In this document: piece after piece, positions 4,460 through 22,268 of the stretch | How positions within the stretch are numbered: position 1 is the stretch's first letter | Layout: every line of letters starts with the position of its first letter | Source: a virus | Length of the DNA: 22,268 nt | Reading direction: 5' to 3' (one strand) | Virus record (IMG/VR): IMGVR_UViG_3300049595_001039 | Location: 1 to 22,268 of that record | Position numbers and translations under genes: made by a program | Notes under the pieces: model-generated | Seen by the model: only the letters and a program-made list of their open reading frames with translations | Database searches by the model: none | Told to the model about the DNA's origin: nothing

Positions 4460-5219
4460 TGACTACCAATTCGGCCTCGTAGGTGTTGTTGTCTGGGATC
4501 TTCAACGATTCCAGTTTGGTGGCGATATTGATCTGAACCGCGTTTTGCTGGTTGTTGCCTTCGCTAAAGTTGATAGATGCGGCTTCGGCCAGTTGCTTGA
4601 TATTTCGCATCATGCCCAGAGCCTCCATGCCATCTAGGTCTTGCGCGGCATCGGCAGCCTTAACCAACACTTTACCAGTCAAAAACTTAATAGATTTCTT
4701 CATGGTCTCAATGGAGGCCGTGATATCGGAGAGCAGGGTGGGAACATCAGAATCCTCCCAAGGTGCGGGGTTTTGGTCGTTGGCCAGCCTTTCTCGGCAT
4801 GCCACCCAGCGTTGAGTTTCCTTCCAAAGATTGATTGTGGACACGCTAACCCCGATTTCCGAAGCAATATCAGGAACGTTGCGCCCAGAGCAGAATAGCG
4901 AAAATGCCTTGATGCATTGCATCCGCTTTTCTTTTTCCATCTCCTCCATCTTTGGCGGAGCGGGAACCAGTTGATTGGGGCGCTCCACCTCCCAAGGATA
5001 GAGGTTTTCTTGTTCGGGGCTAGACCGCCAGATTTCGGCATGCTTTTCCCACTTCTCGCTATGGACAAACTTCGATAGCTGGGGAGGGGAGGTAAAACCA
5101 AGCTCGGTCATAATTGCCTTGGTCCCTCGGCCCGCGACATAAAGTCGGAAGGCATTTTGTTTTTTGATTCGGTTTTCTGGTAAGTCCCAGTCGATCTTGT
5201 TCTTGCGCTGTCCAGCCAT
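4452..5219 (-). CDS. Probable terminase small subunit with two HTH-like halves
   Basis: The 255-residue protein contains two similar segments, residues 23-57 and 104-138. Each has the pattern AF-L-(Y/F)-(V/C)-(A/S)-G-R, then a helix-turn-helix (AIMTELGF / DIASEIGV), then a (W)EKW/QRW end. This resembles the DNA-recognition part of phage terminase small subunits, and the gene lies beside the large subunit. In that role it would bind the packaging site and recruit TerL. The C-terminal part is helical and would serve oligomerisation. It is transcribed away from TerL, with only 28 bp between the two ATGs, which is unusual. A transcriptional regulator with duplicated HTH is the main alternative. 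Confidence 0.6.
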   Translation of the reverse strand: MAGQRKNKIDWDLPENRIKKQNAFRLYVAGRGTKAIMTELGFTSPPQLSKFVHSEKWEKHAEIWRSSPEQENLYPWEVERPNQLVPAPPKMEEMEKEKRMQCIKAFSLFCSGRNVPDIASEIGVSVSTINLWKETQRWVACRERLANDQNPAPWEDSDVPTLLSDITASIETMKKSIKFLTGKVLVKAADAAQDLDGMEALGMMRNIKQLAEAASINFSEGNNQQNAVQINIATKLESLKIPDNNTYEAELVVNE

Positions 5220-5247
5220 CCCGATTAGTTTAGTAGAAATTTCTCAG

Positions 5248-7089: not shown

Positions 7090-7110
7090 ACTCTACGCTG
7101 GATTTTTTCT

Positions 7111-7485
7111 ATGGCCGAACTACCGATTGCTATTGCCGATATTTGTATCTTTCAGGGGGCAACCTTTGACCAGACTCTGTTTTATGAAACGGGAGAGCCG
7201 TCAACACCTGTTAATCTTGCGGGATTTACGGCCAAGATGCACATCCGCTCAAAGCCCGAATCCAAAGCACTAATTCTTGAGTTGTCCACGGCAGTTGGCA
7301 ATGGTAGGATCACTCTTAACTATGGATCTCAAAATGGGGCTATTCGACTATTTATTTCGGCTGCTGACACGGCGCAACTCTCGGTCTGTGACAAGGCCGT
7401 ATATGACCTTGAGCTATACAACGGGTCCGTCACAACCCGAATCCTGCAAGGCAATGTTATCATTTCACCAGAGGTAACCCGATGA
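7111..7485 (+). CDS. BppU-N-like small tail/fibre-attachment protein, copy 1
   Basis: The 124-residue protein has the pattern of the immunoglobulin-like N-terminal domain of phage baseplate/fibre adaptor proteins (BppU-N type): 'IFQGATFDQTLFY', 'PVNLAGFTAKMHIR', a glycine turn, 'AADTAQL', 'AVYDLELYNG' and 'ILQGNVIISPEVTR'. It is paralogous to the 122-residue protein at 10509, with matches along its length. It probably connects a fibre to the tail or baseplate; this is inferred from the family resemblance. It overlaps the next gene by ATGA, and its own start has no Shine-Dalgarno (T-rich leader). Confidence 0.65.
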   Translation: MAELPIAIADICIFQGATFDQTLFYETGEPSTPVNLAGFTAKMHIRSKPESKALILELSTAVGNGRITLNYGSQNGAIRLFISAADTAQLSVCDKAVYDLELYNGSVTTRILQGNVIISPEVTR

Positions 7486-7802
7486 GTAAAATTTGCATTC
7501 CCATCCCAAGCTCCAGCGTTATCGGGGTTAGCACAACGCAGCTTCAAACCCCCAGCGTCAACATACTTCGGGTAGAGCCAGCCATTACGGGGCTGATTGG
7601 CGGCGGTTCTTCCAACTTGGATGGGGTTGTCACTGCTTCTGGGAGCTATGCTGTCGGAATTTGCATCTTTTTGGTTATTAATGGAATTCCAGCAATTTAT
7701 CAATTGGTCAGTGGTAGCAACGCCGAAAGCTCTCCATCAGTAATACGCCCCAATGATTTTGATGAAATGACCAATGCCAAGGTTTGGATTCAACGAATGT
7801 AA
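7482..7802 (+). CDS. Small fibre-region protein of unknown function (106 aa)
   Basis: The product starts MSKICIPIPSSSVIGVSTTQ and has a glycine-rich 'GLIGGGSSNLDG', a hydrophobic strand (YAVGICIFLVIN) and an acidic 'RPNDFDEMTNAKVW' end. It follows the first BppU-N-like protein by ATGA overlap, in the same position as the long fibre at 10874 follows the second copy, so it may be a reduced fibre stub or an adaptor. AGAGG lies about 8 bases before the ATG. No family is recognised. Confidence 0.6.
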   Translation: MSKICIPIPSSSVIGVSTTQLQTPSVNILRVEPAITGLIGGGSSNLDGVVTASGSYAVGICIFLVINGIPAIYQLVSGSNAESSPSVIRPNDFDEMTNAKVWIQRM

Positions 7803-7806
7803 CCTA

Positions 7807-10512
7807 ATGAAAAACTTAATTTCCATAATTATCTCTGGGGCCTTAATTGTTTCGGGCTACGCGCAAACACGCAATGTGTTGGTGGGAACCAACGGTGCGG
7901 TGGTTCAACCGACCAATTTTTGGAGCGCCGATGCCTCCAATGCCCGCGTAGGCTTGGGTGTTGGAGCAACAAATAATGTTACTTTTAATAGAGTTCTTGC
8001 TACTACAACTGGAAGCCTCGCCAATCCTGCCGTTCAAGTTGGAACCAATACTAATGGTTTAGCTGCTTTTAATGGTTTTTTATGGTTGGTCAATAGAGGA
8101 GTTGCAGCCATAACTATTGATACTAGTAATTCATATTTTCTTGGCAATGTGTCGTTTGCAGATCCTACAACGACTAGAACCAATCTTGGCCTTTCTTGGT
8201 CTGGATTAACAAATGCTGATGCGTCTTCTTTTAGGACTGCTTTAGGATTGGGAACAGCGGCGACAAATCCCGCATCTGCATTTCAACCTTCTTCAACGGT
8301 TCTTAGCAATCTTGCCTCCAGCAATGGGGCAAGCCTAACTAATCTTCAGGCTACAAATCTTGTAGGAATCATTCCTTCATCCAATATTGCCACGGTTAAT
8401 TTTTCCAATTTGTCTGGCACACTTAGTATTGCTTCGGGCGGAACAGGAGCCACCAATGCAGCAAATGCTCGACAAAATCTCGGATCTACTACAGTGGGTG
8501 ATGCGGTATTTATCGCCACAAACACATCGGTCGCCAGAACTGCCATCGGGCTTGGGGTAACAAATGTTGTTAGATTTGAAAGTATTCAATTATACCAAGA
8601 CGGAGAAACAACAAACTCCATAACTTATGGGGCTGACTCGTTATTTTTTAACCAAAATGGTGTTGAATTTTTTTCGCTTGATGGCGCGGCAGGCGGCACA
8701 ATTATTTTTAGAAAGCCTATACTTTTTTTAGGCACCAATGCCTCATCCAATGCGGCAGTAAGCAGAACCAATCTGGGATTAGGCTGGTCTGCGCTTACGA
8801 ATACAGATGCCACAAACTTCCGTAATGCCATCGGGCTTGGAGCCACTAATAGCGTGACATTTGAAACGGTAAATTTGGGGGGTCTTTATTTAAGCGAGTC
8901 CGTAATAAGATGGGGAACTAATGACATAATCGAGCCAGAAGCAAGAATATTTTTTGGAGAATGGACATTTGATTCTGGCGCAATTCAGATTGGGGGCGCA
9001 ACAAGTCGCCCATTGTATCAGGCTCAAACTCGCACCAACCTTGGACTCCCTTGGACTGGGCTAACCAACAGCAACGCCACAACATTTCAGGCGGCACTCT
9101 TTGGATCTAATACCAATCCAGTTTTGGTCAATACCAATGGAGAGGTTGTAAGCCCGACCAACTTCTGGCAAGCGGCCCCGATATCCACAACTGTCCAATA
9201 CCAGACAAATGTTACAGGAACATCAACAAATGCCGCAACAAATAGTCGCAATCTTTTCTTGTTCAGCCTTTCTCCTTCGGTATCTGGGGTTACCAATACG
9301 GTTACACTTCCCACCAACCCCGCAACCACATTTGAAGGAGATAGGGCAACAATTACCCATCTTGGCAATTCAACAAACGCAGTAACTGCTATCAGGCAAT
9401 CAGGAGTAGGAACAAATCTTATTACGCTGAATCAAATGGATGAGACTGTTCTGTTGATGTATCGCAGTGGAGCATGGAGGTTGGCCGATAATATTTCTTA
9501 TATTGAGCCTATCTATTTTTCAGGCACCAACGCCACAGCCAATGCGGCGGCAAGCAGAACGAATTTGGGATTGGGAACAACAAATAATGTTATTTTTTTA
9601 TCTTTGATAACGGCAAATACCAATGGATCACTCATTAATTTGGATCCATCTGAAACGCTTGGGCAGTCCTTGACTGGTATTGGAAGGACTTCAAATTCAA
9701 TTTATTTTACTTATGCATCATTTACATATCTAGAAGCCAACACCAATGGGTGGACAGTTCATAGGCCGCTTTCATTTTCGTCAGACGGGATAAGGCTTGG
9801 AACATTAACAAACTTGCAACTTGCTTCTACTAATATTGTTACATTCGCTGGCATCACCAACAACGGCGACATTACGATCAACCAAACCACCACCAACAAC
9901 GGTCTGCTTTACGTTCGCCGCACCAACAACGAAGCCTTCCTTGGCCTCGCCAACCTCATCGCGTCAAACAACGTAACCGTCAGCAACGAAACGTTGTTCC
10001 GTGTAGGTGTCTCAGAGGCTACCAACAAGGCCGCGCAATTCGGCTTCCGCTCAACCAACACCAACGGCAACGGAGTGGCGGTGTTTTCGGTCTTTGGCTA
10101 CAACGCCTTAATGATGATTGGGCCCTCTGATCCCGCAGCAGGAACCAATCCTATCGAAGCAACAGTGTATTCTGTTAGCCCGACAAACAAGGTGATGACT
10201 CTTATCAAAACCAACACAGGAGCCACGATGTTCCATCGTGCTATTGAGTTTGAAAACACCACCAACCAAGCCGTGACTCGCACCAACCTCGGACTTGGCC
10301 AAACCAATAACGTAACATTCTCTAATGTCACGGCATCTGGAACTCTGACAGCTACTGGCACTGTGACGGCAACCACCAATCTTGTGGTTAATGGGTTTGT
10401 AGACTTCTCCACCAACCAAACCAACTCAAACCCCGCAACCAACAACCAGATCAATGACTTCATTGAGATTCGTGTTGGAACCAATCAATTCTGGCTACCA
10501 GTTTATAAATGA
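7807..10512 (+). CDS. Repeat-rich tail fibre protein with signal peptide
   Basis: Counting from ATG 7807, the product has 901 residues. Residues 1-20 (MKNLISIIISGALIVSGYAQ) form a textbook Sec signal peptide with an Ala-x-Ala-like end, odd for a phage structural protein. The rest is built of Asn/Thr/Gly-rich repeats of the form 'SRTNLGLGWSALTNTDATNF...GLGATNxVTF', a motif style common in trimeric beta-rich phage fibres. The N-terminal module 'VLVGTNGAVVQPTNFW' recurs as 'VLVNTNGEVVSPTNFW' near residues 440-455. An ATG at 7774 would add 11 residues and overlap the previous gene; the signal peptide favours 7807. Asn codons switch from mostly AAT to mostly AAC near 9850, suggesting a recombined C-terminal end. 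A secreted host-like adhesin is the alternative reading. Confidence 0.7.
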   Translation: MKNLISIIISGALIVSGYAQTRNVLVGTNGAVVQPTNFWSADASNARVGLGVGATNNVTFNRVLATTTGSLANPAVQVGTNTNGLAAFNGFLWLVNRGVAAITIDTSNSYFLGNVSFADPTTTRTNLGLSWSGLTNADASSFRTALGLGTAATNPASAFQPSSTVLSNLASSNGASLTNLQATNLVGIIPSSNIATVNFSNLSGTLSIASGGTGATNAANARQNLGSTTVGDAVFIATNTSVARTAIGLGVTNVVRFESIQLYQDGETTNSITYGADSLFFNQNGVEFFSLDGAAGGTIIFRKPILFLGTNASSNAAVSRTNLGLGWSALTNTDATNFRNAIGLGATNSVTFETVNLGGLYLSESVIRWGTNDIIEPEARIFFGEWTFDSGAIQIGGATSRPLYQAQTRTNLGLPWTGLTNSNATTFQAALFGSNTNPVLVNTNGEVVSPTNFWQAAPISTTVQYQTNVTGTSTNAATNSRNLFLFSLSPSVSGVTNTVTLPTNPATTFEGDRATITHLGNSTNAVTAIRQSGVGTNLITLNQMDETVLLMYRSGAWRLADNISYIEPIYFSGTNATANAAASRTNLGLGTTNNVIFLSLITANTNGSLINLDPSETLGQSLTGIGRTSNSIYFTYASFTYLEANTNGWTVHRPLSFSSDGIRLGTLTNLQLASTNIVTFAGITNNGDITINQTTTNNGLLYVRRTNNEAFLGLANLIASNNVTVSNETLFRVGVSEATNKAAQFGFRSTNTNGNGVAVFSVFGYNALMMIGPSDPAAGTNPIEATVYSVSPTNKVMTLIKTNTGATMFHRAIEFENTTNQAVTRTNLGLGQTNNVTFSNVTASGTLTATGTVTATTNLVVNGFVDFSTNQTNSNPATNNQINDFIEIRVGTNQFWLPVYK
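7930..10330 (+). repeat. Degenerate TNLGLG...VTF fibre repeats
   Basis: At least seven divergent copies encode an (A/S)RTNLGLG-type motif often followed by 'ATNxVTF'. They begin near 7930, 8170, 8464/8533, 8761, 9029, 9552 and 10276. The copies at 8170 and 8761 also share the longer 'WS(G/A)LTN.DA..FR.A' segment. They look like duplicated structural units of a fibre shaft rather than mobile DNA. Confidence 0.65.
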
Positions 10513-10877
10513 CCAACTACTGGAGACTTGAAAGAGACATTGAAATCGTCCAAGGAAAGACATGGACGGCGAAGTTTCGTTATCTGACCAAGTCCTGTAA
10601 AGGCAAGTCTAATGTTCCCGTCAATCTTTCGGGCTACGGGGCCAACATGGTGATTCGGGAATGCGCGAAGGATAGTGCTACTTTGCTTACACTGACCTCT
10701 GGAGGCGGGATTACATTGGGCGGGAGTGCGGGCACCATCGAAATCGAAATCACCGCCACACAGGCCGCAAACCTAACAGCAGGCGACAACGTCTACGAAA
10801 TCGAACTCTACCAAGGCTACACCTATATCGCATTCGCCACAGGTAAGGCCAAGGTCTATCAGGAGATTGCCCGATGA
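10509..10877 (+). CDS. BppU-N-like small tail/fibre-attachment protein, copy 2
   Basis: The 122-residue protein is a paralogue of the one at 7111. Shared landmarks are '[12 protein letters not shown]', '[14 protein letters not shown]', '[19 protein letters not shown]', 'VYEIELYQG' and a C-terminal '(V)YQEIAR' matching 'SPEVTR'. It is probably an adaptor domain anchoring a fibre to the tail. It starts inside the stop of the upstream fibre (ATGA) and ends inside the start of the next (ATGA), giving a tightly coupled unit. The N-terminus has an extra positively charged stretch compared with copy 1. Confidence 0.65.
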
Positions 10878-13867
10878 GCCAAGAGGTCATTGAGATCACA
10901 GAGAGGGAGATTGAGATCATTGAGGTCATCGAACGGGGGCCCGTGGGGCAGACTGGCCCGCAGCCCGATATCAACTATGAGGTGGTTACTTCCAGCAGGA
11001 CGGTCACTAGCCGCCAGTTTATCGCCGCTGACACTTCTGGAGGGGCATTTACTCTTACCCTTCCGCTCAATCCCAGCAATGGCGATGCAGTAGACATCTT
11101 TGACTTTTCTGAAACCTTCGACACCAACCCTCTTACGATTGCCCGCAACGGCCAACCCATTGAAAGCCTTAACGAGAATCTAGTCTGTAACGTCGAGGGG
11201 GCTTACTTTACCCTGATTTACACAGGGGCCACCCGTGGATGGCAGGTATTGCCCCGCTATGGGACTTCTGGTGGCGGAGGAGAATCGACCCTCACAACTC
11301 AGGGTGACATGTTGTATCGGGGCGTTGGAATTAATACACGCCTCCCAATTGGAAGCGCGGGACAAATACTAAAGGTAAACAGTGGAGCCACAGCCCCCGA
11401 ATGGGGAACCATCTCCACAGCGCCCAGCGGCCCCGCAGGCGGAGACCTTACTGGAACTTATCCTAATCCAACTTTAACTACTACGGGGGTTGTCGCTGGC
11501 ACTTATACCAAGGTCACCGTTGATACAAAGGGTCGGGCAACTGTTGGAGCTTCTGCAACAAAGTCAGACGTTGGGCTCAGTAATGTCGATAACACAAGTG
11601 ATGCCTCAAAACCCGTCTCAACAGCTACCCAGACCGCGCTAAATCTAAAGGCTAATCTGGACTCCCCCGCGCTCACAGGAACACCGACAGCACCGACTGC
11701 TGCTGCTGGAACTGATACCACCCAGATTGCTACTACGGCATTTACACTGGCAAATCGCGGAGACCGCTATCTCACAACTTCCACAACCTCCCATTCACTA
11801 ACCACTGGATCTAAGACGTTCACCGTCCAATCAGGACTCAGCTACACCCCGACACAGGACGTTACCATTGTATACGATGCAGATCGACACATGCATGCTT
11901 TTGTTACCAGCTACTCTGGAACGTCATTGGTGGTTAATGTCGATACAGTAGCAGGTTCAGGTGGGCCATTTACAGCTTGGACAATCAATGTAGGCGGGCT
12001 TTTGACAGCACAGGGGGCACTACTTGAGGTTAACAATCTTTCGGATGTCTCAAATCCCGCAACCGCATTAACCAATATTGGAGGAGTTCCGACATCCAGA
12101 AGTATTAGTGCTGGCACTGGATTGACTGGCGGCGGCGACCTCACGGCCAACAGGACTTTGGCCGTATCTTACGGAACCACAGCGGGAACCGCTTGCGAGG
12201 GGAATGATGCGCGGTTGAGTGATGCGAGGACACCGAGTTCAACACTGGCTCATGCGGCCAGCCATGCGGCGGGCATTAAGGCCAGTTTCAGCGGCCAAGT
12301 CGCAGGGATGTCCACGCCCGTTCTTGTTCGCGCAAACGCCGCTGGAACCGCAGGCAACAGCATCTCGCTTACATTTAATGGCTCTCAGTCGATAATTAAC
12401 CGCCTGTCTGCGTGGAACTCGGCCAATCCCTCCAATCAAGCTACTTTGATTTGGGGCGATGGGTCGCAGATTCCCGAAAACGGCGAGGACTTCACGCTTT
12501 CGGGCGGGGTTGCGGGTGGATCAGACCCAATTCCGTCTTTTTCTCAACTCGCTGTTAATGATGGCAATGGCGTTTCATTAGTTTCGCTAAACGGCGCATC
12601 AAGCGACATCATTGAATTTGAATCAGCAGAGCTAACATTTCAACATACTGGCGGCAATGATACTCCCTACATTTCCGTTACGGACGAAAGCAACAATGAA
12701 GCGTTGCTTGGTCTTCGCCAAGGCGAAATGTTTTTGCAAGGAAGCAACCCCGATGTCCGCATTGAGCAAGGCGGCGGCGGGCTTGCCAACATCCTCATGG
12801 CAAGCGCCAAACTTGTTGACGAGCAAGGGCCATATACTGCGACAATAGATGTTCAAGAGCAGCTTACAGATGACGTAACCCTCACGATCCCCGACCAGTC
12901 GGGAACCATCGCGGTCACGACAGACATCATTGCCCCGCCTGATGCTTCTGACGCCACCCCGCAAGCCCTCGGAGTTGCGGCGGCTGGAAGCTCGGCTGAT
13001 TTTTCGCGGGCCGACCACGTTCATGCGATGCCCTCTGCGGCGGATGTTGGCGCAGCCGCCAGCGGCTCCATCACTTCATCGGGCCTCACCCAAGCCACCG
13101 CCCGCATCCTCGGACGCACAACAGCCAGCACAGGTGCCGTCGAGGAAATAACAATCGGATCGGGCCTTTCGATGTCGGCGGGGGAGTTGTCGGCAACGGG
13201 ATCGGGCGTCACCGCAGTCGGCACGACCCTCGCGGACATCCTTTCGGTCAGCGGCAGCGACCTTGTGGCCGACGATCTGGCTGCCGATAAGCTCTACGGG
13301 TGGGATGATTCGGAATCCAAGGCGATTGGGTTTATTATTGGCAGCGGGTTGAGCGTGTCGGGCGATACGCTTTCGGCCACGGCCAGCGGCGGATCAAAGA
13401 CCTACGCCGTCTTCACCGCCGAACACAACCAACCGCCTGCCACCACCTTCGCCACCCTCGACACCCGCAACAGCATCGCCGTCCTCGACTTCGATGACGC
13501 CTCGACCGAATCCGCTGTCTTCGTCGGCATCATGCCCGAAGCCGCGTCCCTCGGCAGTGGCTTAATCGTCAACCTCGACTTCATGGCGACCACGGCCACC
13601 AGCGGCAACGTGCGCTGGAGTGTGGCCTTTGAGCGTTGCAACACCGACCTCGACTCAGATTCTTTCGACACGGCCACCGCTGCCACAGTCGCCACCTCTG
13701 GCACATCTGGCATTGTTGCCGTGGGCAGCATCACTTGCACCGCCATCGACGGCATAACGGCTGGCGACTTGTTCCGCCTGCGTGTGCAGCGCATCGGCGG
13801 CGATGGGGCCGACACCATGACAGGCGATGCGGAGTTGGTCGCTGTCGAAGTAAGGAGTGCGGCGTAA
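10874..13867 (+). CDS. Large modular tail fibre protein
   Basis: This 997-residue protein shows many phage-fibre modules. A charged start contains a short collagen-like 'GPVGQTGPQ'. Near residue 143 is 'GDMLYRG'. At about 230-290 is '[19 protein letters not shown]' followed by '[13 protein letters not shown]', the classic tail-fibre repeat. At about 298-377 is a '[12 protein letters not shown]...[13 protein letters not shown]' module. At about 470-550 is a module ending 'LSGG', and the C-terminal beta-sandwich-like end runs from about 838. These are receptor-binding or shaft modules of a trimeric fibre. It is coupled to the upstream adaptor by ATGA with AGGAG as ribosome-binding site. The last 900 or so bases are clearly more GC-rich than the earlier part, suggesting an exchanged C-terminal tip. 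Confidence 0.85.
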
Positions 13868-14529
13868 TGGCTTACAATTTTACAGCGGCGAGTATTCAGT
13901 ATTTGAGCGTAGCCGACACGGCGGCTCTGGACATCACGGGCGCATTGACTTTGGCAGCTTGGGTCAAAAGCAGCGGCAGCTATGCGGCTGGCGGGCGAGG
14001 TATCGTGGCAAAGTATGAAACTGGAACAGGGCAGCGCAGCTACGCGATGGCAATAAACTCAAGCGGATATTTGCAAGCTCTCATTGCATCAAGCAATAGC
14101 CCAGTAAATGTCCGCTCTGAAACAGTACAAACAGCACTTGGAACAAACTGGCGTCACTGCTGCATTACTTTTGCGCCCAATACAAACCCAAAAGTATTTT
14201 TGGACGGAATACAGGAAACAACAACCAACAACAGCGGTAACGTACCAGCGTCAATTTTTAGCGGATCAGCACCTTTGTGGATAGGTGCAATTTCCAATAC
14301 GTCTTTTGTTTGGGATGGGCTGATTGCTGAAGCCTCCGTCTACAACGCCGCCCTAACCGCCGACGAAATCGCATCTCTCGCCAAAGGCATGACTTGCGAC
14401 AAGGTGCGCCCGCAGTCGCTCGTCTTCTACGCCCCGCTCGTCCGCGAACTGCAAGACGTTAAGGGCGGCTTGACCATCACGAACAACAACACGGCGACAG
14501 TCGCCAACCATCCGCGAGTTTATGCTTAA
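13867..14529 (+). CDS. LamG / concanavalin-like lectin domain protein
   Basis: Counting from the ATG that overlaps the previous stop by one base (TAATG), the protein has 220 residues. It shows the LamG/concanavalin-A-like jelly-roll pattern: 'ALTLAAWVKSSG', 'GIVAKYE', 'YAMAINSSGYLQALI', 'WRHCCITF', 'VFLDGIQ', 'APLWIGAI' and the typical closing 'ASVYNAALTADEIASLAKG'. Such domains bind carbohydrates; here it is probably a decoration or tip protein for host-surface binding. AAGGAG sits about 10 bases before the ATG. The frame stays open further upstream to 13636 but that segment lies within the fibre gene in another frame and is not protein-like. Confidence 0.8.
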   Translation: MAYNFTAASIQYLSVADTAALDITGALTLAAWVKSSGSYAAGGRGIVAKYETGTGQRSYAMAINSSGYLQALIASSNSPVNVRSETVQTALGTNWRHCCITFAPNTNPKVFLDGIQETTTNNSGNVPASIFSGSAPLWIGAISNTSFVWDGLIAEASVYNAALTADEIASLAKGMTCDKVRPQSLVFYAPLVRELQDVKGGLTITNNNTATVANHPRVYA

Positions 14530-14953
14530 CTACTACCGCATTTCCGACCCCAACGATGTCCGCGACCTTGGCGAGCAGATGGCTGCATGGGAAGTTGCCG
14601 ACAACCCGAAGCGTTTTGATTGGGCCGTGCAAAGCGCACCCCCAAGCGTGGATGCCGTGTGGACTGACGGCGCGTGGATCGTCCCGCCGTTGCCGACGAT
14701 GACCGCCGAAGAGGCCGTCAGCCAATACTTCTCTCCTTACCAGACGCTCGCCCTCCAGCGTTTTGAGATGGCCCTCCTCCAAGCAGGCAAGCCCCTCGGC
14801 CCGAAGATGACCGCCGCGAAGCAGTGGCTTGAAGGCGTCATGCTTTCATGGGCCGCATCCCCGACACCCGCACCAGCGGAGGCTTTCGGCCAGCCGCAGG
14901 CGACCTTTGAGGAGGCGAGCGCCGAAGCCGTGGCGGGGTTGCAGGCAGGTTAA
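14522..14953 (+). CDS. Hypothetical protein after lectin, possible fibre accessory
   Basis: The 143-residue product starts MLNYYRISDPNDVRDLGEQM and overlaps the lectin gene by 8 bp. It has a short domain with 'AVWTDGAWIVPPLP', then a helical region (LALQRFEMALLQAGKPLG) and an Ala/Pro-rich, acidic helical C-terminus. Its place just after the fibre and lectin genes would suit a fibre-assembly helper or small structural protein, but no family is recognised. Codon use is GC-rich like the end of the preceding fibre. Confidence 0.65.
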   Translation: MLNYYRISDPNDVRDLGEQMAAWEVADNPKRFDWAVQSAPPSVDAVWTDGAWIVPPLPTMTAEEAVSQYFSPYQTLALQRFEMALLQAGKPLGPKMTAAKQWLEGVMLSWAASPTPAPAEAFGQPQATFEEASAEAVAGLQAG

Positions 14954-14995
14954 AATCCCGAAACATAATGGTAGCCCCAAATCCCGAAACATAAT
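14953..14995 (+). repeat. Perfect 17-bp direct repeat in leader of trypsin-fibre gene
   Basis: AAATCCCGAAACATAAT occurs at 14953-14969 and again at 14979-14995, a period of 26 bases. The first copy begins on the last base of the upstream stop codon. Each copy ends in CATAAT, close to a -10 box, and a TTGCAG at 14939-14944 lies 19 bases before the first. It may be a duplicated promoter or operator for the gene at 15010; that role is inference. Confidence 0.6.
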
Positions 14996-15009
14996 ACAAT
15001 ACATATTTC

Positions 15010-17394
15010 ATGGCCTTCCTCTCTTCATTCTATCCCCAGCCAGTAGTAGCTGGCACCACCGCAGGCACCTATGCGGAAGGGAATGCGTCTAGGATTATCG
15101 ACGTAACCCATGCTGGGTTAATGTCTCTTATGGGCAGCCAGAGTCTCAAGGCGGGATTTCACTATCGCATCACAGACTTTGTCACGGAATACATGTCCAA
15201 CGACAGCGAGTGGATCTCCCCGTCAAACACGGCAAACGTTAGCAACAACAATGGCACGGCATTCACGGTAGCTTCCATTGCGGCCACGCCCGAACCTCTT
15301 GTTGTGTATGCTTATAGCTCCAGCAATGTTTCCAAGAATGCATATTCCAATCTTTTTCCACAAGACATCATCCACTACGATCCATCGCTGACTTATCTTG
15401 ATGGAACGAGGGAGGCAAAGGGGTTTATCACTTATAGGAAAGACAATCTTCGTGACATTTCTGCAACCTATGATTGGAGAAACGTAAGGTTTAAAATTTG
15501 GAACATTGATCCAACCGCTGGAGCCAACCCCATCCCTCTTTGGCAAAACGGGACAACCTACACTGTTGGACAATACTTAAGAAATGCAACAGGTCAAGTT
15601 TTTCAATGTATTGAAACGACAACTACCGAGCCAATTGATATCAGTGACCTTATTAGTAATGGAACGTCAGATTGGCTTCCATTTTGCCATCTTGATCACA
15701 CCTATACATTTGGTACTGATTTAGCATTTACTGGACCCTCAGTTGGTAGTGTTCCGTCTGGCGGTTTAGGTGGTCGTAATGAGGCTAAATATGTTTCAAC
15801 ATTCTGTAGGGATTTTTCAAATCCGTCCTTAGATACAAGTTCAAACATTAGAGATATTAAAATTGAGTGTTCTCGACCAACGGTTAACTCTGTAACAAGA
15901 TATAGTGACGTCATCAGGCCGCACGTTTTAATGCGCGGCGCGGCAAGCTCTTCATTGTTAAGGCTTTCTTTTAAAGAATCCACCGCTATTTTGCTTCAAG
16001 CTGGAGGACTTTCTTCGGCAGCCACAGTGGCAAATGTTTTTGTTGAAAACTGTGCATCTGTTAATTTAGCAATAAGATTACTTGGTGCAGGAAGTTCAAA
16101 CATTTCCATTAAACATAGCAGTAATTTTAATTTATTTATTTCAAAAACAATAGCAGGATCAAGGCTTTCTTGTTCGTACACTGGAAGTAATGAAACGCAA
16201 AGAGTGTCAAATTCTTCTTTTTACACGCAATTAACAAATTGTTTTTTCAATAACTGTTCAAAAATCACAACAACGTTGATTAATTTGAGTGCTAAATATG
16301 ATGGTTGTGTCAATTGTGTAATATCTCACTCTGGCAATTACAGCAATATTGGATTTAACATAAACCCGCTTGCAACAGACAGAAATAAAGTGTTTGGTTT
16401 TGTGCCATTAAATTCTGATAGTGTTTTTCATTATAACATAGACAATCTTCCAGTATGTGAATTTACAAACAGAGACAATGCAAAAACAATTGTTCCACAC
16501 ATTGATGATGAAAAATTAATATTTAAAGTTTCAAATAGTGGAATACTAAACAAAATATCCGAGATAAGTAATGTTAACGATTCTCTTCCATTGTTTTCCA
16601 CAAGAGATGACGTTACGCCATCATACACAAGAAACGCATCAAATTGGTTGGGGGAATCAGCGGAATTGCTTACTGGTTATAGCCCTTGGAACAGTGCTTA
16701 TGGAGATGACTTTGGATGCATCGCCATAACGCCAAGGCACATTTGGTTTGCCAAGCACATTACAACATCGTTAACTGGTGCAACAATTCGCTTCATCACA
16801 AATTCAAATACAGTTGTCGAAAGAACAATTTCAAGAACAATAAATTCTCAAGTTAATTTTGATGTTGGCATAGCATTACTTAACAGTGATTTGCCAGAAA
16901 GTATTAATATTGTTAAAATTCTCCCAGCAAGTGCGTCAAAAAAATTTACAAGCGCTGTGTTTTCTTCTGGTTCTTTTTGGATTAATAAAGATAAAGAAGC
17001 ACTTATTACTACCATAAGCGCATTTTCTAATAATTCTGCGTCTACTCAGATTCCATTTTCATCTTCAGACCCCAACTACGGACCAATTTATGTTTCGGGG
17101 CTTGATGGAAATCAAAGAGCTTTTTATAAAAATGTAGTAGTTGGAGATTCTGGATCTCCGTTATTTTTGCTAATAAATAATGAACCAGTTCTTGTTGGAC
17201 TGGCGTTCTCCGCGCCAAATCCAGCTAATGATGAAGGCGGCGAACTGCAAGCTATTTGGGGCGGAGACATTATTGCTGGTGGTTCAAACATTCCGATTAA
17301 CACATTGATAGCGAATATTGACACCGCACAAGGCATTTCTACTGGATACACAGCAACATATTTTAATGATTCCAATTTTGAAAATGTTTCTTAA
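15010..17394 (+). CDS. Fibre/adhesin with carbohydrate-binding-like module and C-terminal trypsin-like protease domain
   Basis: The 794-residue protein has at least four parts. Residues 1-60 resemble a tail-protein start. At about 115-170 is 'AKGFITYRKDNLRDISATYDWRNVRF', a motif seen in phage beta-helix proteins. At about 175-207 is 'LWQNGTTYTVGQYLRN.TGQVFQC', which looks like a CBM5/12-type carbohydrate-binding module. At about 250-500 is an Asn/Ser-rich probable beta-helix. From about 550 onward there is a trypsin-like (S1/chymotrypsin-fold) domain. His583 lies in 'ITPRHIWFAKHI' (AAHC-like), Asp618 in 'DVGIALLNS', and Ser714 in 'VVGDSGSP', followed by 'LVGLAFSA'. Spacings of 35 and 96 residues fit the fold. 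It could digest surface proteins or mature the fibre. From about 15480 the gene is AT-rich, unlike its neighbours. No Shine-Dalgarno. Confidence 0.8.
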   Translation: MAFLSSFYPQPVVAGTTAGTYAEGNASRIIDVTHAGLMSLMGSQSLKAGFHYRITDFVTEYMSNDSEWISPSNTANVSNNNGTAFTVASIAATPEPLVVYAYSSSNVSKNAYSNLFPQDIIHYDPSLTYLDGTREAKGFITYRKDNLRDISATYDWRNVRFKIWNIDPTAGANPIPLWQNGTTYTVGQYLRNATGQVFQCIETTTTEPIDISDLISNGTSDWLPFCHLDHTYTFGTDLAFTGPSVGSVPSGGLGGRNEAKYVSTFCRDFSNPSLDTSSNIRDIKIECSRPTVNSVTRYSDVIRPHVLMRGAASSSLLRLSFKESTAILLQAGGLSSAATVANVFVENCASVNLAIRLLGAGSSNISIKHSSNFNLFISKTIAGSRLSCSYTGSNETQRVSNSSFYTQLTNCFFNNCSKITTTLINLSAKYDGCVNCVISHSGNYSNIGFNINPLATDRNKVFGFVPLNSDSVFHYNIDNLPVCEFTNRDNAKTIVPHIDDEKLIFKVSNSGILNKISEISNVNDSLPLFSTRDDVTPSYTRNASNWLGESAELLTGYSPWNSAYGDDFGCIAITPRHIWFAKHITTSLTGATIRFITNSNTVVERTISRTINSQVNFDVGIALLNSDLPESINIVKILPASASKKFTSAVFSSGSFWINKDKEALITTISAFSNNSASTQIPFSSSDPNYGPIYVSGLDGNQRAFYKNVVVGDSGSPLFLLINNEPVLVGLAFSAPNPANDEGGELQAIWGGDIIAGGSNIPINTLIANIDTAQGISTGYTATYFNDSNFENVS

Positions 17395-17438
17395 TCTGTT
17401 TGATTTCAACCCTTAACTAACCTACACTTTCTACTTTA

Positions 17439-19712
17439 ATGGCAACAGGCAACGCAGAACTGGAAAACCTACCAGAGAGTGGTGGTCCCCCGAAAAAACG
17501 CATAAAGTCATCGGATAGCCTTGTGGCCATCGCTAACAAGTATATCGAACAAGATGAGGATGCGGCGTACCTTCGGGCGCGAGCGCAAGCCTTGGTCAAC
17601 GGCGAAGCCCCCTACGATGCCGAAGAGCTAAAGAGCAAGGGTCTAACCCATGTGGTTAATGCCAACTTTGGGGAAGCTAACGCCATCATGGAAGCCGCCT
17701 TGGCCCCGTATATCGAACTCCAGAACGGGGTGCCGCGCATTGCCAACGTCATCATGGACTCCTACGAAGGAGACTCCAACGAGGACTCTGAGATCATCTC
17801 TGAAGAATTCGACTGGATGCTCAAAGAATGGAGCGACCATGCCTACAACATGCAACTCCTCTCTAGGGAGTTTGTGGGTGACGGGGTTGGGGTGGCCATG
17901 TGGCCCGATGAACGCTCCATCTTCTGGGAGCCCTGTGGGCTAAAAGACTTCAAGGTGGCCCGCGACACCAAGGTTTCAGATGAGTCTATCGAAGTAGCTA
18001 TTGTCCAACGCTCCATGAGTGTGAGCGAGCTTTACAACTACATCCGCAATCCTAAAGCGGCCAAAGCCCTTGGTTGGAATCTTAATGCGGTTAAGCAGGC
18101 GATTTGGAAGGCTTCAACCAAGCGAGATCAGTGGAAAAACTATACCGCTCACTGGGAAGACTTTGAGCGCGAAATCAAGGAGAACGATCTTTACGCTGGG
18201 GAGTCGGCCTACCACAGAGCCCAGTTGGTCTATGGTTATAACAAGGAGTTTGATGGTAAGTTCACCCAGCTAATTGGGAGTCGGGATTCTTCGGACTTCC
18301 TCTACGAACGCTACAGCCGCTATGGAAACGTAAATCAGTGCTTTGTTATCTTCACCTACGGAGTTGGTCAGGGGACATTCCATACCATTCGCGGACTCAA
18401 GCAGAAGATCTACAACCAGATCCAGATTTCTAACCGCGTGTTGTGCCAAGCTGCCCAAGCCGCCATCACCTCTGGTCTCATCCAGTTGCAGGGTGACGCC
18501 GAAGCCATCCAAGACTTTCAATACATTGAGGTCGGGCCTTATACGTTCATCCCTAGTGGGCTGACCCCGATCCAACTTCAACCTCCCGCAGTAGCAACTC
18601 AGGGGCTTCCTGTTTACAACCTGATGAGTCAGGTGTTGCAGAATAATACAGGTAGTTACCGCTCGCGCCAGACCACGCCCGAAGGACAGGCAAGATCGGC
18701 TACCGAAGTTGTCCAGCAGGCCCGTCAAGAATCCACGCTCAACGCCGCAGCACTGGAACTCTTTTATACTCCATATAACAAACTTCTGACCGAGCAGTAT
18801 CGTAGGGCGGTAAGCCCGCTATTAACGGCAAACGATAAGGGTGGACGCCTAGCCTTAGAATTCCGCAAACGTTGTCTACGCAGGGGAGTAAGTGTGGAGC
18901 GGATGCGCCAGTTCTTGAAGGTTACAGCCTTCCGAGCCATGGGAGATGGGAGCCCCGTAATGACCGAGATGGCCTCCAAGCAGTTGATGGAGCTTTATTC
19001 CCTGATGGATGAAAAGGGCAAAGAAAACACCCTTCGTTCCGTCATCGCTGGTATCTCTGGAGTGGGTTGGCAGAAGGTCAACCTCTTCGTTTCGGAGAAG
19101 GGCCCGCGCCGTACGATTGACTTTGATATCGCTAATTTGGAAAACGGCAACCTCCGCAACGGAATCCAACAGATGGTGCATGATAGTCAAAACCACGCTG
19201 TGCATATCGAAGCCCACATTCCGCTCATGGCTGAGATTATTGAGATGCATCGTCAGCAACAAATTCCAGACGAGCAAGCCATGGCTATCCTTCGCCCTAC
19301 CGCCGACCACACCACCGAACATCTGGTTCTTTTCTCAACCAACAGCTTCCGCAAACAAGAAGTCAACGAACTCAAGCGCCAGCTTCAAAACGTCACAGCT
19401 TATGTGGACGAGTTGGAACAACAGGTCATCAATCGTGCCATGGCCGAACAAAGCCAAATGCAGGAACAAGCTATGTCCCCGCAGGAGGGTGGACAGCAGC
19501 AGATTGATCCCAAGATGGAAATGGAATTCCAAAAGGCGCAACTTAAACTGGCCGAAATGCAAGAGAAGCGGATGATGAATCAAGAGACCCACGCGCAGAA
19601 GATGGAAACCATCCGTCAGCAAATGGCTCTCAATGATCTCAAGACGCGGAGTTCTATATTGGAGAAAACGGCTAGGCCCGCAGGCCGACCCCCGATGGCG
19701 ACCGAAGCATAA
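17439..19712 (+). CDS. Portal protein (large, podovirus-like)
   Basis: This 757-residue protein is assigned as the head-tail connector from its size, its place before scaffold and capsid, and typical segments: an N-terminal 'EAPYDAEELKSKGLTHVVNANF', a core 'GTFHTIRGLKQKIYNQIQISNRVLCQAAQAA', and 'GQARSATEVVQQARQESTLNAAALELFYTPYN', which resembles the crown/stem helices of large portals. The C-terminal 140 residues are Gln/Met-rich and helical (coiled coil, 'MEMEFQKAQLKLAEMQEKRM'), as in long barrel-bearing portals. It would form the dodecameric ring through which TerL loads DNA. No Shine-Dalgarno precedes the ATG; the leader is pyrimidine- and A-rich. Confidence 0.85.
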   Translation: MATGNAELENLPESGGPPKKRIKSSDSLVAIANKYIEQDEDAAYLRARAQALVNGEAPYDAEELKSKGLTHVVNANFGEANAIMEAALAPYIELQNGVPRIANVIMDSYEGDSNEDSEIISEEFDWMLKEWSDHAYNMQLLSREFVGDGVGVAMWPDERSIFWEPCGLKDFKVARDTKVSDESIEVAIVQRSMSVSELYNYIRNPKAAKALGWNLNAVKQAIWKASTKRDQWKNYTAHWEDFEREIKENDLYAGESAYHRAQLVYGYNKEFDGKFTQLIGSRDSSDFLYERYSRYGNVNQCFVIFTYGVGQGTFHTIRGLKQKIYNQIQISNRVLCQAAQAAITSGLIQLQGDAEAIQDFQYIEVGPYTFIPSGLTPIQLQPPAVATQGLPVYNLMSQVLQNNTGSYRSRQTTPEGQARSATEVVQQARQESTLNAAALELFYTPYNKLLTEQYRRAVSPLLTANDKGGRLALEFRKRCLRRGVSVERMRQFLKVTAFRAMGDGSPVMTEMASKQLMELYSLMDEKGKENTLRSVIAGISGVGWQKVNLFVSEKGPRRTIDFDIANLENGNLRNGIQQMVHDSQNHAVHIEAHIPLMAEIIEMHRQQQIPDEQAMAILRPTADHTTEHLVLFSTNSFRKQEVNELKRQLQNVTAYVDELEQQVINRAMAEQSQMQEQAMSPQEGGQQQIDPKMEMEFQKAQLKLAEMQEKRMMNQETHAQKMETIRQQMALNDLKTRSSILEKTARPAGRPPMATEA

Positions 19713-19762
19713 TTTTCTTCTAGACAAACCATAGATCCGCGTATAGCGGTAGTATATATCTA

Positions 19763-20065
19763 ATGACTGAATGGACCGATCAGGACGCCCGTGAATGGAG
19801 TAAAACGTGGGCGATGCCCCATATGCAGAAAGGCTTGCGACACATTGCAAGGCGCGTTAGGCCGAAACGTTCAACAGGCCCCGTGGCCCAAGGCTTTGAT
19901 CTGTCGCCCGTGTTTATCAAGAGTGCGGGTTTTTATGAGGGCTCTCAAGAGGTCATTGATCTCATTTCTATTTTGGCCGATGGTAAGGTAGAGACCAAAC
20001 CCAGATTCGACTTGCCAGAACCCTTCTCCCATATAGATTTAGAAGACAAAACACAAACAGCTTAA
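19763..20065 (+). CDS. Small protein between portal and scaffold; reading frame uncertain
   Basis: The annotated frame gives 100 residues, starting MTEWTDQDAREWSK and ending in a convincing acidic segment (FYEGSQEVIDLISILADG and on). The middle part is basic and less convincing. In the overlapping frame from GTG 19791, the same bases encode a clean four-cysteine zinc ribbon. A -1 shift at the GGGTTTTT run (19927-19934) would join that ribbon to the acidic end read here, giving a protein of about 91 residues. A short hairpin (CCGC-GTATA-GCGG, 19737-19749) lies in the leader, and there is no Shine-Dalgarno for ATG 19763. Function unknown. Confidence 0.45.
   Translation: MTEWTDQDAREWSKTWAMPHMQKGLRHIARRVRPKRSTGPVAQGFDLSPVFIKSAGFYEGSQEVIDLISILADGKVETKPRFDLPEPFSHIDLEDKTQTA
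19791..19991 (+). CDS. Overlapping zinc-ribbon frame, alternative to the ORF at 19763
   Basis: From GTG 19791, preceded by CAGGAC five bases upstream, the frame encodes 'RCPICRKACDTLQGALGRNV' and then 'KALICRPCLSRV'. Cys9-x2-Cys12 and Cys38-x2-Cys41 make a well-formed zinc ribbon typical of small phage proteins. After about residue 46 this frame becomes basic and hydrophobic (ending 'FLFWPMVR'), so the genuine C-terminus may lie in the 19763 frame. Either this is the N-terminal half of a gene broken by an indel or recoding, or the cysteines are a chance pattern. Confidence 0.35.
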   Translation: MNGVKRGRCPICRKACDTLQGALGRNVQQAPWPKALICRPCLSRVRVFMRALKRSLISFLFWPMVR

Positions 20066-20073
20066 TTATTAAG
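20061..20073. repeat. AT-rich inverted repeat after small ORF
   Basis: CTTAATTATTAAG is a perfect inverted repeat (5-bp arms, TTA centre) that spans the TAA stop at 20063-20065. It could be a weak hairpin or a protein-binding site in the 50-bp gap before the scaffold gene. The stem is too AT-rich for a convincing terminator. Confidence 0.3.
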
Positions 20074-20115
20074 CGCATCTATACAAACAAGTAACTATTA
20101 ACGATACATACACTT

Positions 20116-21429
20116 ATGGCCGATATCCTCAACTCAGCCCTCACGGGCGAAGCAGACTTTGCTGGAACCATCTTTGGTGGTAAAAACCAACCTGAAGTCA
20201 ATGAAGCACCCGCAGTCGAAACCGCCACTCCAGAGCCAGCCGAAGCGCCGAAAGAAGAAGCTCCCAAAGAGGAGAAGGTCGCTCCCGTCAAAGCGGAACC
20301 CAAGGCCGAAAAGAAGCCCAAGGCCACCAAGGAAGAGACGGCCAAGGCCGTAGAGAAGATCACCGAGAGCGTTTCCAAGGAGACCAAGGACGAGACCCCG
20401 AAAGCCGAAGCTTCGGAAGACGATCTCCCTCTCAATCCCCATTTTCAAGATAAAGCTGTTTCTGATAAACCTGAAGGTGATGATTCTGAAAAGGGTATCT
20501 CAAGCTGGAAAGAGATTAAAATCGAAATGAAAAAGGCCCGTGAAGAGCGGGATCGCCTCAAGGCCGAACTGGAAGCCACCAAAGAGAAGGTCGGCAAGTA
20601 TGAGGGGGAGACCGTCAAATCCCTCCAAGAAGAACTGGAAGGCTACAAGACTCGCTTGGCAGAGCTAGGCCGCGAGCTAAAGACCGCCAACTTTGAAAGA
20701 AGTCCAGAATATGTCGAAGCCATCAAAAAGCCTCTGGCGGGCCTTCAGGGCGATTTAAAGGCCATTGCAGAAGCCAATGACGCCGACTTCAGCAAACTCT
20801 GGCAAGCCCTCACCGAGCCCGATGCCCGCAAACGAATCGACTCTCTTGAAGACCTGACGGGAGACTTCAAGCGCATGGAGCAACTCTCCATCGTCAAAAT
20901 GGCCGACAAATACCATGAGTTGGCCCAATACCATGAGCGGTTCCAGAAGGAGGCCGAAACCTTGGCCGAAGCCGAAAACGCCCGCAAGGCCCAGTCCGAA
21001 CAAGAGTTTATTGAAAACGATCTTCGTCTCCAAAAAGCCTTCACGGCCAAAACTTGGACTAATTTGGAAGATCGTTATAACTTCCTCCAAGAAGTCGAAG
21101 GACAGGATGAGTGGAATGGCCATATCCGCAGCGCCAAGAAGAACGCCGCCGAAACCAATCTGGACCGCTTGAGCGTCGAAGACCGCAGCGCCATCCTCGC
21201 ACGGGCTGCTGTAGTCCCCTTCCTTGAGAGTGCCATCAACCACTACACCACCCAAATGGAACGGGTGAACGCCGAAAAAGACGGCAAGATCAAAGAACTC
21301 CAGACTCAGCTAGAAGGCTTGGTCGGAGCCACCCCAAGCTTGGGCAAGGCCACCGAAACCGACACCAATGACGGGGATGACGAAAATCCCGACAGCCTGA
21401 TGAATTTCGGAAAATCTATCTTCCGCTAA
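20116..21429 (+). CDS. Capsid scaffolding protein
   Basis: The 437-residue protein is strongly charged and Glu/Lys/Ala-rich. Residues 30-110 are a disordered Pro/Glu/Lys repeat region (variants of EAPKEE and KAEPKAEKKPKA). Residues 130-330 are almost continuous coiled-coil heptads ('KKAREERDRLKAELEATKEK', 'LQEELEGYKTRLAELGREL'). The C-terminus ends 'NPDSLMNFGKSIFR', a short basic-aromatic tail of the kind that binds the capsid subunit in scaffolds. The position directly before the capsid gene and after the portal gene supports this role: it would organise the prohead and then leave. No protease domain is visible. No Shine-Dalgarno. Confidence 0.8.
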   Translation: MADILNSALTGEADFAGTIFGGKNQPEVNEAPAVETATPEPAEAPKEEAPKEEKVAPVKAEPKAEKKPKATKEETAKAVEKITESVSKETKDETPKAEASEDDLPLNPHFQDKAVSDKPEGDDSEKGISSWKEIKIEMKKAREERDRLKAELEATKEKVGKYEGETVKSLQEELEGYKTRLAELGRELKTANFERSPEYVEAIKKPLAGLQGDLKAIAEANDADFSKLWQALTEPDARKRIDSLEDLTGDFKRMEQLSIVKMADKYHELAQYHERFQKEAETLAEAENARKAQSEQEFIENDLRLQKAFTAKTWTNLEDRYNFLQEVEGQDEWNGHIRSAKKNAAETNLDRLSVEDRSAILARAAVVPFLESAINHYTTQMERVNAEKDGKIKELQTQLEGLVGATPSLGKATETDTNDGDDENPDSLMNFGKSIFR

Positions 21430-21439
21430 AATTCTGCTA

Positions 21440-21468
21440 TTGACAATTTAACGCAAATGTAATAGTTT
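21440..21468 (+). promoter_or_regulatory. Possible promoter for the capsid gene
   Basis: TTGACA at 21440-21445 is a perfect -35 consensus just after the scaffold stop. With a 17-base spacer the -10 position is TAGTTT (21463-21468), only 3/6; TAATAG at 21460 fits better but leaves a spacer of 14. A strong promoter here would give extra capsid transcript and would place the structured leader in the RNA. Confidence 0.3.
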
Positions 21469-21595
21469 GCGCTCAAGACTTGAGTCCGAGTTGGTCGCGG
21501 ACACTCTGCTGGCGAGTTAGCGCCTTCACAATTTGTAGCCGTAAATCTCTGGTCGCGGCCCAGAAACTCAACCGATAGACGGGCATCCCATGCCC
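21469..21595 (+). other. Structured leader upstream of capsid gene (possible RNA element)
   Basis: In the 209-bp gap between scaffold and capsid genes, several inverted repeats cluster. GCGCT (21469-21473) pairs with AGCGC (21519-21523), enclosing GTCCG/CGGAC (21484-21488 with 21498-21502) and ACTC/GAGT (21503-21506 with 21514-21517). Further on are TCTGG/CCAGA (21548-21552 with 21560-21564, 7-base loop) and GGGCAT-CCC-ATGCCC (21581-21595). A competing long-range helix, TTGAGT (21480-21485) with ACTCAA (21566-21571), would close a tRNA-like cloverleaf of 92 bases. The 9-base TGGTCGCGG appears twice (21492, 21550). No coding frame is visible. It could be a leader RNA, a small RNA or a degenerate tRNA. 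Confidence 0.4.
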
Positions 21596-21638
21596 AGAAA
21601 TCAAAACTAACCCTTAAACCAAATAGAAATAAAATATC

Positions 21639-22268
21639 ATGTCAGCACCTAACGCTGCTTCAGTTACTTGCGAGAGCATTAACGACAATTTCCAGAGAGA
21701 GACTGGACGTATTGCCCTTGGCACCCATCGCTTGGGTCTTTATAAAGATCCCTACCTTCGTCTTGTTACCCAGTCGGCCTTCCCCGACAACATGGGCAAA
21801 ACGATCACCAACACTATTGCTCGCCGTACCATCGCCTCTGGCAGTGGTTGGGAGTCCATCGGTGTCACTGGCGAAGCTGGTCAGGACAACTCCTGCTTGG
21901 CTCCCGTCAAGAAAGTCGGCTACGCCTTCGACCAGAAAAACTTCTCGCTCCGCCATCAGGCTGTGGAGTCGGATTGGATCTGCTTGGAAGACGTTCGTAC
22001 TTCGGCTTTCCCGATTGATGATGTCAACAACTACATCAAGATCTTGGCCGACAACGTCAACGTCGAGTGGATTAAGCGTTACGACAACGACTATCTGTCC
22101 AACGTCAATATCTTGAGCGTCGAAGCTGGCTTTGACACCCAGATTGGAACTGGCGTCACCTTTAGTGGTGACAATGCCACGATCACTGGTCTCACGGCCC
22201 CGACGAGCGTTCTCACGACTGGCGTTCTGCGTCAGATCTACGACAGCCTCTACTCGGACAACGCTGGA
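21639..22268 (+). CDS. Major capsid protein, N-terminal part (runs off window)
   Basis: An ATG at 21639 opens a frame that stays open for 210 codons to the end of the window without a stop, so the gene is truncated here only by the window edge. The product begins MSAPNAASVTCESINDNFQR and continues with a mixed alpha/beta sequence that includes 'NTIARRTIASGSGWESIG', 'WICLEDVRTSAFPIDDVNNY' and 'WIKRYDNDYLSN', which look like a capsid E-loop and spine region. The call rests mainly on the order portal, scaffold, this gene, and on codon bias typical of a highly expressed gene. The leader is AT-rich (AATAGAAATAAAATATC) with no Shine-Dalgarno. Confidence 0.75.
   Translation, partial: MSAPNAASVTCESINDNFQRETGRIALGTHRLGLYKDPYLRLVTQSAFPDNMGKTITNTIARRTIASGSGWESIGVTGEAGQDNSCLAPVKKVGYAFDQKNFSLRHQAVESDWICLEDVRTSAFPIDDVNNYIKILADNVNVEWIKRYDNDYLSNVNILSVEAGFDTQIGTGVTFSGDNATITGLTAPTSVLTTGVLRQIYDSLYSDNAG

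Follow-up and report, generated by a model that had tools for sequence, protein, structure and literature searches.

The 794-residue fibre-like protein encoded on the plus strand at positions 15010..17394 (ORF and translation) of the window, by which is meant the whole 22,268-base stretch of a virus record analysed here, has at its C-terminal end (residues 529-794; positions 16594..17391, + strand) a domain predicted to be a serine protease of the chymotrypsin fold. This assignment is confirmed at the level of prediction, with profile comparison with the PDB, AlphaFold2, Foldseek, VIA and alignments of relatives as its evidence, and it bears out the preliminary description, which had proposed a trypsin-like protease domain with a catalytic-looking triad at the C-terminal end of the fibre. 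The preferred reading of its function, held with moderate confidence on the basis of sequence and model, is that the domain would be a catalytically competent endopeptidase displayed on the virion at the fibre tip, where it would cut host surface proteins during adsorption.

The triad residues fall exactly where they had been placed. The general-base histidine H583 (codon 16756..16758, + strand) lies in PRHIWFAKHI, which starts at residue 575, and aligns with the catalytic His of solved proteases; the triad aspartate D618 (codon 16861..16863, + strand) opens DVGIALL; and the nucleophile S714 (codon 17149..17151, + strand) stands in GDSGSP, which starts at residue 712, all three positions being supported by the alignments. 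The conserved lead-in of the domain may begin near residue 505. Pfam Trypsin (PF00089) gave no match in the window, no Pfam family matched the fibre at E<=1, Peptidase_S74 included, no NCBIfam family matched the protein, and a phmmer search of the PDB with the domain returned no match.

A carbohydrate-binding-like module had also been attributed to the fibre; no such module was recovered among the Pfam families (none at E<=1), and the one weak PHROG match, of unknown function, covers residues 172-210 (E 0.025), outside the protease domain. Residues 1-528 were partly matched by tblastn in four phage records, namely an uncultured phage (E 2e-9), a faecal phage (5e-4) and gp99 of Sphingomonas phage PAU in two records (9e-3), and gave one chance-level match in the PDB (E 0.35). 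A LamG or concanavalin A-like ORF that may be a binding partner (13867..14529, start inferred, + strand) is separate from the fibre gene and ends 480 bases upstream of it, the match to Pfam Laminin_G_3 PF13385 (E 2.5e-21) spanning window positions 13861-14526. No signal peptide is evident by eye in the window fibre, which fits cytoplasmic assembly.

Among phage records, tblastn found one true relative, UOF78081.1 (L006) of Podoviridae sp. ct3Et533 (27%, E 7e-4), which retains RHI....H, D and GDSGSP. A match to Synechococcus phage Sf-CH11 and a near copy of it (E 0.05) was rejected as a long structural protein with no GDSG around the match. Related-locus searches with the window domain, and also with the window-L006 pair (A1), returned five near-identical contigs only; the search with L006 alone returned no loci, and plasmids gave no matches. 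A DNA pattern common to the window and UOF78081.1, consisting of GDSG-x-P and a spaced tail, was then scanned over IMG/VR and retrieved 50 stretches. Judged by eye, 25 of these belong to a single family and are not duplicates, and they were retained. Those dropped include the five near-identical contigs, two chance matches (L013 and L032), one frame whose N-terminal part is unrelated (L053) and the duplicates L041, L048, L061, L044 and L056. The scan also retrieved seven lipoprotein-like trypsins (L016, L026, L028, L035, L039, L043 and L057) and five V8-like proteases (L018, L022, L029, L050 and L051), which were sorted by eye and likewise dropped.

Twenty-three of the 25 kept members, L020 and L027 being left out, were aligned with the window in the 24-row alignment A2, in which H583 and D618 are nearly invariant, though neither was part of the search pattern. 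In the 26 first-set rows made up of the 25 members and L006, the histidine is found in 22/22 aligned rows, its column being empty in the truncated L017 and L046 and in the unaligned L020 and L027, and the aspartate in 22 of 24 aligned rows, with Gly in L015 and Glu in L030 as exceptions, the latter probably misaligned. Pfam Trypsin PF00089 was matched by 3 of the 24 A2 members (best E 2.1e-4). PHROGs matches of these 24 members were set aside, as they were to six families with one member each and a best E of 0.011.

The A2 profile gave 366 PDB matches at E<=10, the best 60 of which are S1-type proteases; the top match, the serine protease 7uxg (E 1.2e-6), owes its score mainly to the GDSG half, and in the match to factor Xa (E about 1e-4) profile positions 27-216 were aligned. 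To avoid circularity, everything from about 10 residues before GDSG was cut off in the A4 profile, built from 20 first-set members and the window. This shortened profile gave 150 PDB matches at E<=10, of which the best 60 are all S1-type (best E 0.0026), and its second His falls on the catalytic His of the solved proteases. Judged from the alignments, the triad is more than a chance coincidence.

Structure prediction followed by fold comparison with S1 proteases, which had been put forward as one way to check the domain, gave a predicted chymotrypsin fold with AlphaFold2, Foldseek and VIA alike. The AlphaFold2 model obtained with the A2 alignment has a pLDDT of 74 and a pTM of 0.80, with mean pLDDT values of 87, 83 and 77 in the ten-residue blocks that contain H583, D618 and S714 respectively, and with 41 of 266 residues under 50; a single-sequence model (pLDDT 33, pTM 0.25) was discarded. 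Foldseek matched 1016 PDB chains at E<=0.001, the best 50 of which are chymotrypsin-fold proteins (TM 0.43-0.58), and in VIA thrombin and prostasin scored Z 16.4 (203 residues superposed, rmsd 3.3), followed by V8 protease and chymotrypsin with Z 16.3. The best viral structural match, A0A6J7XEP5 (E 1.8e-15, TM 0.74), comes from an uncultured Caudovirales phage and is uncharacterised.

A stricter pattern run over the genome collection gave two matches, both in MAGs that are Verrucomicrobiota by title, and both proteins have signal-peptide-like starts and PEP-CTERM-like ends. With the A3 profile, at least 46 of 288 Verrucomicrobiota genomes were matched, the profile sampling of bacteria having covered this phylum alone. 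Three kinds can be told apart by eye among the bacterial matches: exoproteins of the PEP-CTERM type, proteins of prophages, and large secreted proteins, two of the last kind having been scanned and found to carry RCC1 and Ig-like or TSP3 repeats. The domain stands at the end of large secreted Verrucomicrobiota proteins in L099, L100, L103, L104, L105, L107 and L110, and in all seven (by eye) the gene that follows encodes a product of 195-243 aa that starts like a signal peptide and ends like a PEP-CTERM protein, possibly a partner or inhibitor. Among 34 Verrucomicrobiota rows, which with the exception of L065 and L066 were found by profile and not through the GDSG pattern, H583 is present in 34/34, D618 in 33 of 33 aligned (one gap) and S714 in 34/34.

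The A5 alignment, in which the window sequence stands beside six relatives taken from genomes of Verrucomicrobiota, served for a second viral scan, in which 159 viral stretches were confirmed. The best 80 of the 159 yielded 79 loci, and removal of the five near-identical contigs and of 18 loci sharing an identical 60-residue segment left 56 non-duplicate relatives, many of which are still close kin. His, Asp and Ser are complete in 56/56, the Ser site, unlike the other two, being partly fixed by the search pattern. The oxyanion Gly712 is retained in 55/56 of these relatives and in 32/34 bacterial rows, and D713 in every aligned row. As to position, no more than 9 residues follow the end of the domain in 52 of the 56, including L145, which is cut by the locus end; in the first set, the protein ends no more than 90 residues past GDSG in 13/25 members, and longer C-terminal extensions are present in the other 12/25, indicating that a tip position is common and not a rule. 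The preliminary description had called such a domain an unusual choice for a fibre. From its sequence relatives it is no one-off, as it belongs to a widespread and so far unnamed family.

In a quick tree of 58 rows, two short rows having been left out, a 17-row clade, 13 members of which have PEP-CTERM-like ends, stands apart (SH-aLRT 96) from the other 41 phage, prophage and large-secreted rows, and in this larger clade phage and host versions are intermixed. The window pairs with L069, from the prophage of region L098, at 38% over 228 columns (support 89, not starred). Homologues of the window terminase and of the ORF taken for its portal were each found in one of the 288 Verrucomicrobiota genomes, in both cases G192, at 26% and 23% identity respectively. 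This genome lies outside the 46 domain-bearing ones and, consequently, Verrucomicrobiota as host phylum is only a lead.

The R541-N542 pair (positions 16630..16635, + strand) belongs to a lead-in of the form Y-x-R-N-x-x-[CF]-[WF] and, from the alignments and VIA, lies near the site of zymogen activation in chymotrypsin-like proteases. VIA aligns model residue 17 with residue 20 of chymotrypsin and thrombin, which puts R541, the thirteenth residue of the domain, about where Ile16 begins the active enzyme. There is no Ile or Val of the position 16 type at or beside this approximate site, where the conserved R541-N542 is found. R541 is present in 54/56 and N542 in 55/56 second-set viral relatives; elsewhere R541 occurs in 16 of 21 aligned first-set rows, in 10/15 other bacterial rows and in 0/15 aligned rows of the PEP-CTERM clade, and this incomplete conservation counts against a general rule for the lead-in Arg. 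The ungapped equivalent of trypsin Asp189 is N708 in the window and is variable among relatives, so that cleavage after Lys or Arg cannot be assumed; a one-residue shift would place K707 at the Asp189 position, and residue 707 itself is acidic in 54/56 relatives and Lys in the window. The term trypsin-like can therefore be kept for the fold and cannot be extended to the specificity, and neither Ile/Val16 nor Asp189, which characterize trypsin proper (S1A), is apparent in the aligned sequence.

D713 is the counterpart of Asp194, which is held by the N-terminal charge in chymotrypsin-like enzymes. The lead-in Arg could thus mark a place where the fibre is cut, or it could replace the N-terminal charge that holds D713. 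A broader proposal, offered only tentatively and with less than even confidence, is that of a widespread, unnamed class of permanently active chymotrypsin-fold virion tips, the protein-cutting equivalent of the tailspikes that depolymerise polysaccharides. The class would be exchanged together with fibre genes, with as many as three consecutive copies, and would also occur in secreted proteins of the Verrucomicrobiota hosts; in it the lead-in Arg would take the place of the zymogen N-terminus through a salt bridge to D713 and no activation cut would be needed.

In the window, the fibre gene is placed in a tail-fibre module beside other fibre-type genes. A fibre-shaft-like protein with TNLGLG and LGATNSVTF repeats (7807..10512, + strand; phrog_5481 tail-fibre match, E 0.0043) has eight matches to shaft-type motifs, counted without a chance control, and is of a type found near protease genes in other phages. 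Its probable start is the ATG at 7807, the preceding ORF ending at 7802, and it opens with a signal-peptide-like stretch, MKNLISIIISGALIVSGYAQ, which is odd for a virion protein. A tail fibre protein of 997 aa from the same module is encoded at 10874..13867 (+ strand; phrog_1197 tail protein, E 3.4e-20; phrog_35419 tail fiber protein, E 3e-19). Downstream of the fibre gene, a 757-aa ORF (17439-19712) without a PHROGs name is taken for the portal, its G192 homologue following that of the terminase at a distance of about 1 kb; this portal-sized protein had no matches among phage records. The window terminase was recognised through PHROGs (phrog_2, E 4.5e-14). Within window positions 5164-19712, about 10 kb of mostly fibre-type genes separates the terminase gene from the portal-sized ORF, and in the related region of G192 the two homologues lie about 1 kb apart or less.

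The fibre gene is contained in a block that is 99.2-99.5% identical to five other IMG/VR contigs. This identity holds from position 14864 onward, as far as each contig extends (window 14864-22268), and over the upstream fibre region (window 7468-12928) the same five contigs are a mosaic with 86-99% identity, matching what is expected for exchanged fibre genes. Inside the domain there are no nucleotide differences among these contigs, which are therefore uninformative on selection there.

Among the relatives, the protease gene of L006 directly follows a gene annotated 'rhamnogalacturonan lyase', itself located after a structural protein gene, and that of L023 lies two genes downstream of a pectate-lyase-like gene. 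When eight proteins from five viral loci were compared with PHROGs, six matched: L019, L047 and L055 yielded head or tail families, L023 yielded the pectate-lyase-like protein, and L038 yielded none. At least one head or tail protein was found near the domain gene in each of five prophage regions (L098, L101, L102, L109 and L111; 10 proteins compared with PHROGs, 6 matched). These are part of 14 fetched regions, the others being the seven with large secreted proteins listed above and the unplaced L106 and L108. Of ten genes lying upstream of the protease gene in second-set loci, three could be matched to tail or virion families and seven to no family. Shaft-type motifs (RTNLGLG, LGxxDTVEFG and LPSxxxVTD) were found on the same strand in 14/56 loci, the motifs being self-chosen and counted without a chance control.

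Two or three protease ORFs are present in 5/71 loci. In L131, three of them alternate with two shaft-type ORFs, and a similar alternation is seen in L148, L152 and L162. Copies inside one array share 38-74% over the domain and 23-63% over the region preceding it; in the L031 array no boundary between the two could be placed, and the copies share 38% over their whole length. In prophages L101 and L109, the protease-bearing protein has a signal-peptide-like start, which would fit export by a lysogen over a virion part. Several other head/tail-module proteins of these two Verrucomicrobiota prophages also have, by eye, signal-peptide-like starts (L101:13521-13928, L109:4804-5190 and neighbours), including a small protein encoded directly after the major head protein.

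Under the preferred reading of a virion-displayed tip protease, the fibre would bind the cell first and the protease would then cut host surface proteins, such as a protein coat, outer-membrane proteins or exported adhesins, thereby opening the way to the receptor or committing the virion to it, in analogy with tailspike depolymerases acting on polysaccharides. We infer that the domain would be present in the particle, be catalytically active and meet an extracellular substrate at the time of adsorption. Several observations count against such a role, namely the C-terminal extensions in 12/25 first-set members, the signal-like starts in L101 and L109, the tail or virion families in just 3/10 neighbours and the loss of the Asp in L015. 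Alternatively, the protease may cut its own fibre, for instance at R541-N542, and so mature or release the tip, as in self-cleaving chaperone tips or zymogen activation. The near-complete conservation of this pair in the second set, about at the zymogen activation site, and the mostly C-terminal domain of these relatives would agree with such processing, but R541 is less regular in the first set and absent from the PEP-CTERM clade, residue 708 provides no consistent acidic S1-pocket residue that would demand a cut after Arg, and the domain is away from the C-terminus in 12/25 first-set relatives; self-processing is considered unlikely.

The phage protease could also be envisaged as acting at the surface of, or after secretion from, the infected cell or lysogen, for the benefit of that cell and not of the virion, for which the secreted PEP-CTERM-type homologues of Verrucomicrobiota and the two prophage versions with signal-peptide-like starts would speak. 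However, no signal peptide can be made out by eye in the window protein, its gene lies among tail-fibre genes ahead of the portal-sized ORF, and arrays with fibre-type genes are found among the relatives, and this role is regarded as improbable, as are the particular services to a lysogen that could be imagined (biofilm, exclusion of other phages, nutrition). The absence of the triad Asp in L015 would be in line with a retired enzyme, in which the fold would serve to bind a host protein and cutting would have been lost; since even divergent relatives show hardly any change in the triad and oxyanion residues, this is considered very improbable for the family member in the window.

Most of the enzymes known from phage tips cut sugars. 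The fibre-tip protease look of the window protein and its many viral relatives suggest that phages may digest bacterial surface proteins as others digest sugars. If protease tips are common, surface proteins of Verrucomicrobiota, and perhaps of other environmental bacteria, would be barriers or receptors that phages digest; a function would be given to many unannotated phage proteins, and host range would become more accessible in a phylum whose phages have been little studied. The domain would also be a compact, testable serine protease, possibly one that needs no zymogen cleavage to be active.

Compared with known systems, the domain shares with the S1 family and PA clan (chymotrypsin, thrombin, V8/GluSE) the predicted double-barrel fold, the H-D-S order and GDSG, and differs from them in its 9-17% identity to the solved chains among the matches listed, in having Y-x-R-N in place of an Ile16-type start, in the lack of a fixed Asp189 and in being carried on a phage structural-type protein. 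The PEP-CTERM trypsin-like exoproteins of Verrucomicrobiota (L063, L064 and others) belong to the same domain family by profile, but they are secreted host proteins of a separate clade (SH-aLRT 96) and lack R541 in 15/15 aligned rows. Peptidase_S74 intramolecular chaperone tips are likewise C-terminal protease-type domains on phage fibres, with a fold and catalytic residues that differ from the S1 type, whereas the C-terminus of the window fibre is modelled as an S1-type fold and has no Pfam S74 match.

PghP is a zinc-dependent gamma-peptidase that is not known to have an S1 fold or to be fused to a fibre. This poly-gamma-glutamate peptidase of Bacillus phage NIT1 is named among virion-associated depolymerases in PMC5380687 and resembles the proposed enzyme in coming from a phage and opening a surface layer made of peptide. 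In a PB1-like Pseudomonas phage, the protein PA-PP, assigned to serine proteases by mass-spectrometry matching, is reported in PMC6748951 to have serine-protease activity that digests an outer-membrane porin, and is likened to the window domain by this described activity. A trypsin-like serine protease common to one phage cluster is mentioned in a passage of PMC10783043 that does not state a fibre location. Among the papers listed in the literature searches, none describes an S1-type protease domain on phage fibres, as far as titles and the opening of abstracts show. A parallel in design is seen with tailspike and other virion-associated depolymerases, with which the window protein, as its tail-fibre gene context suggests, would share an enzymatic fibre tip; its relatives lie by fibre genes, two of the relative loci lying near polysaccharide-lyase-type genes, and the window enzyme differs from these depolymerases as a predicted protease and no glycan lyase or hydrolase. 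The domain and its relatives would thus form a so far unnamed protease family, a variant among the virion-borne depolymerases.
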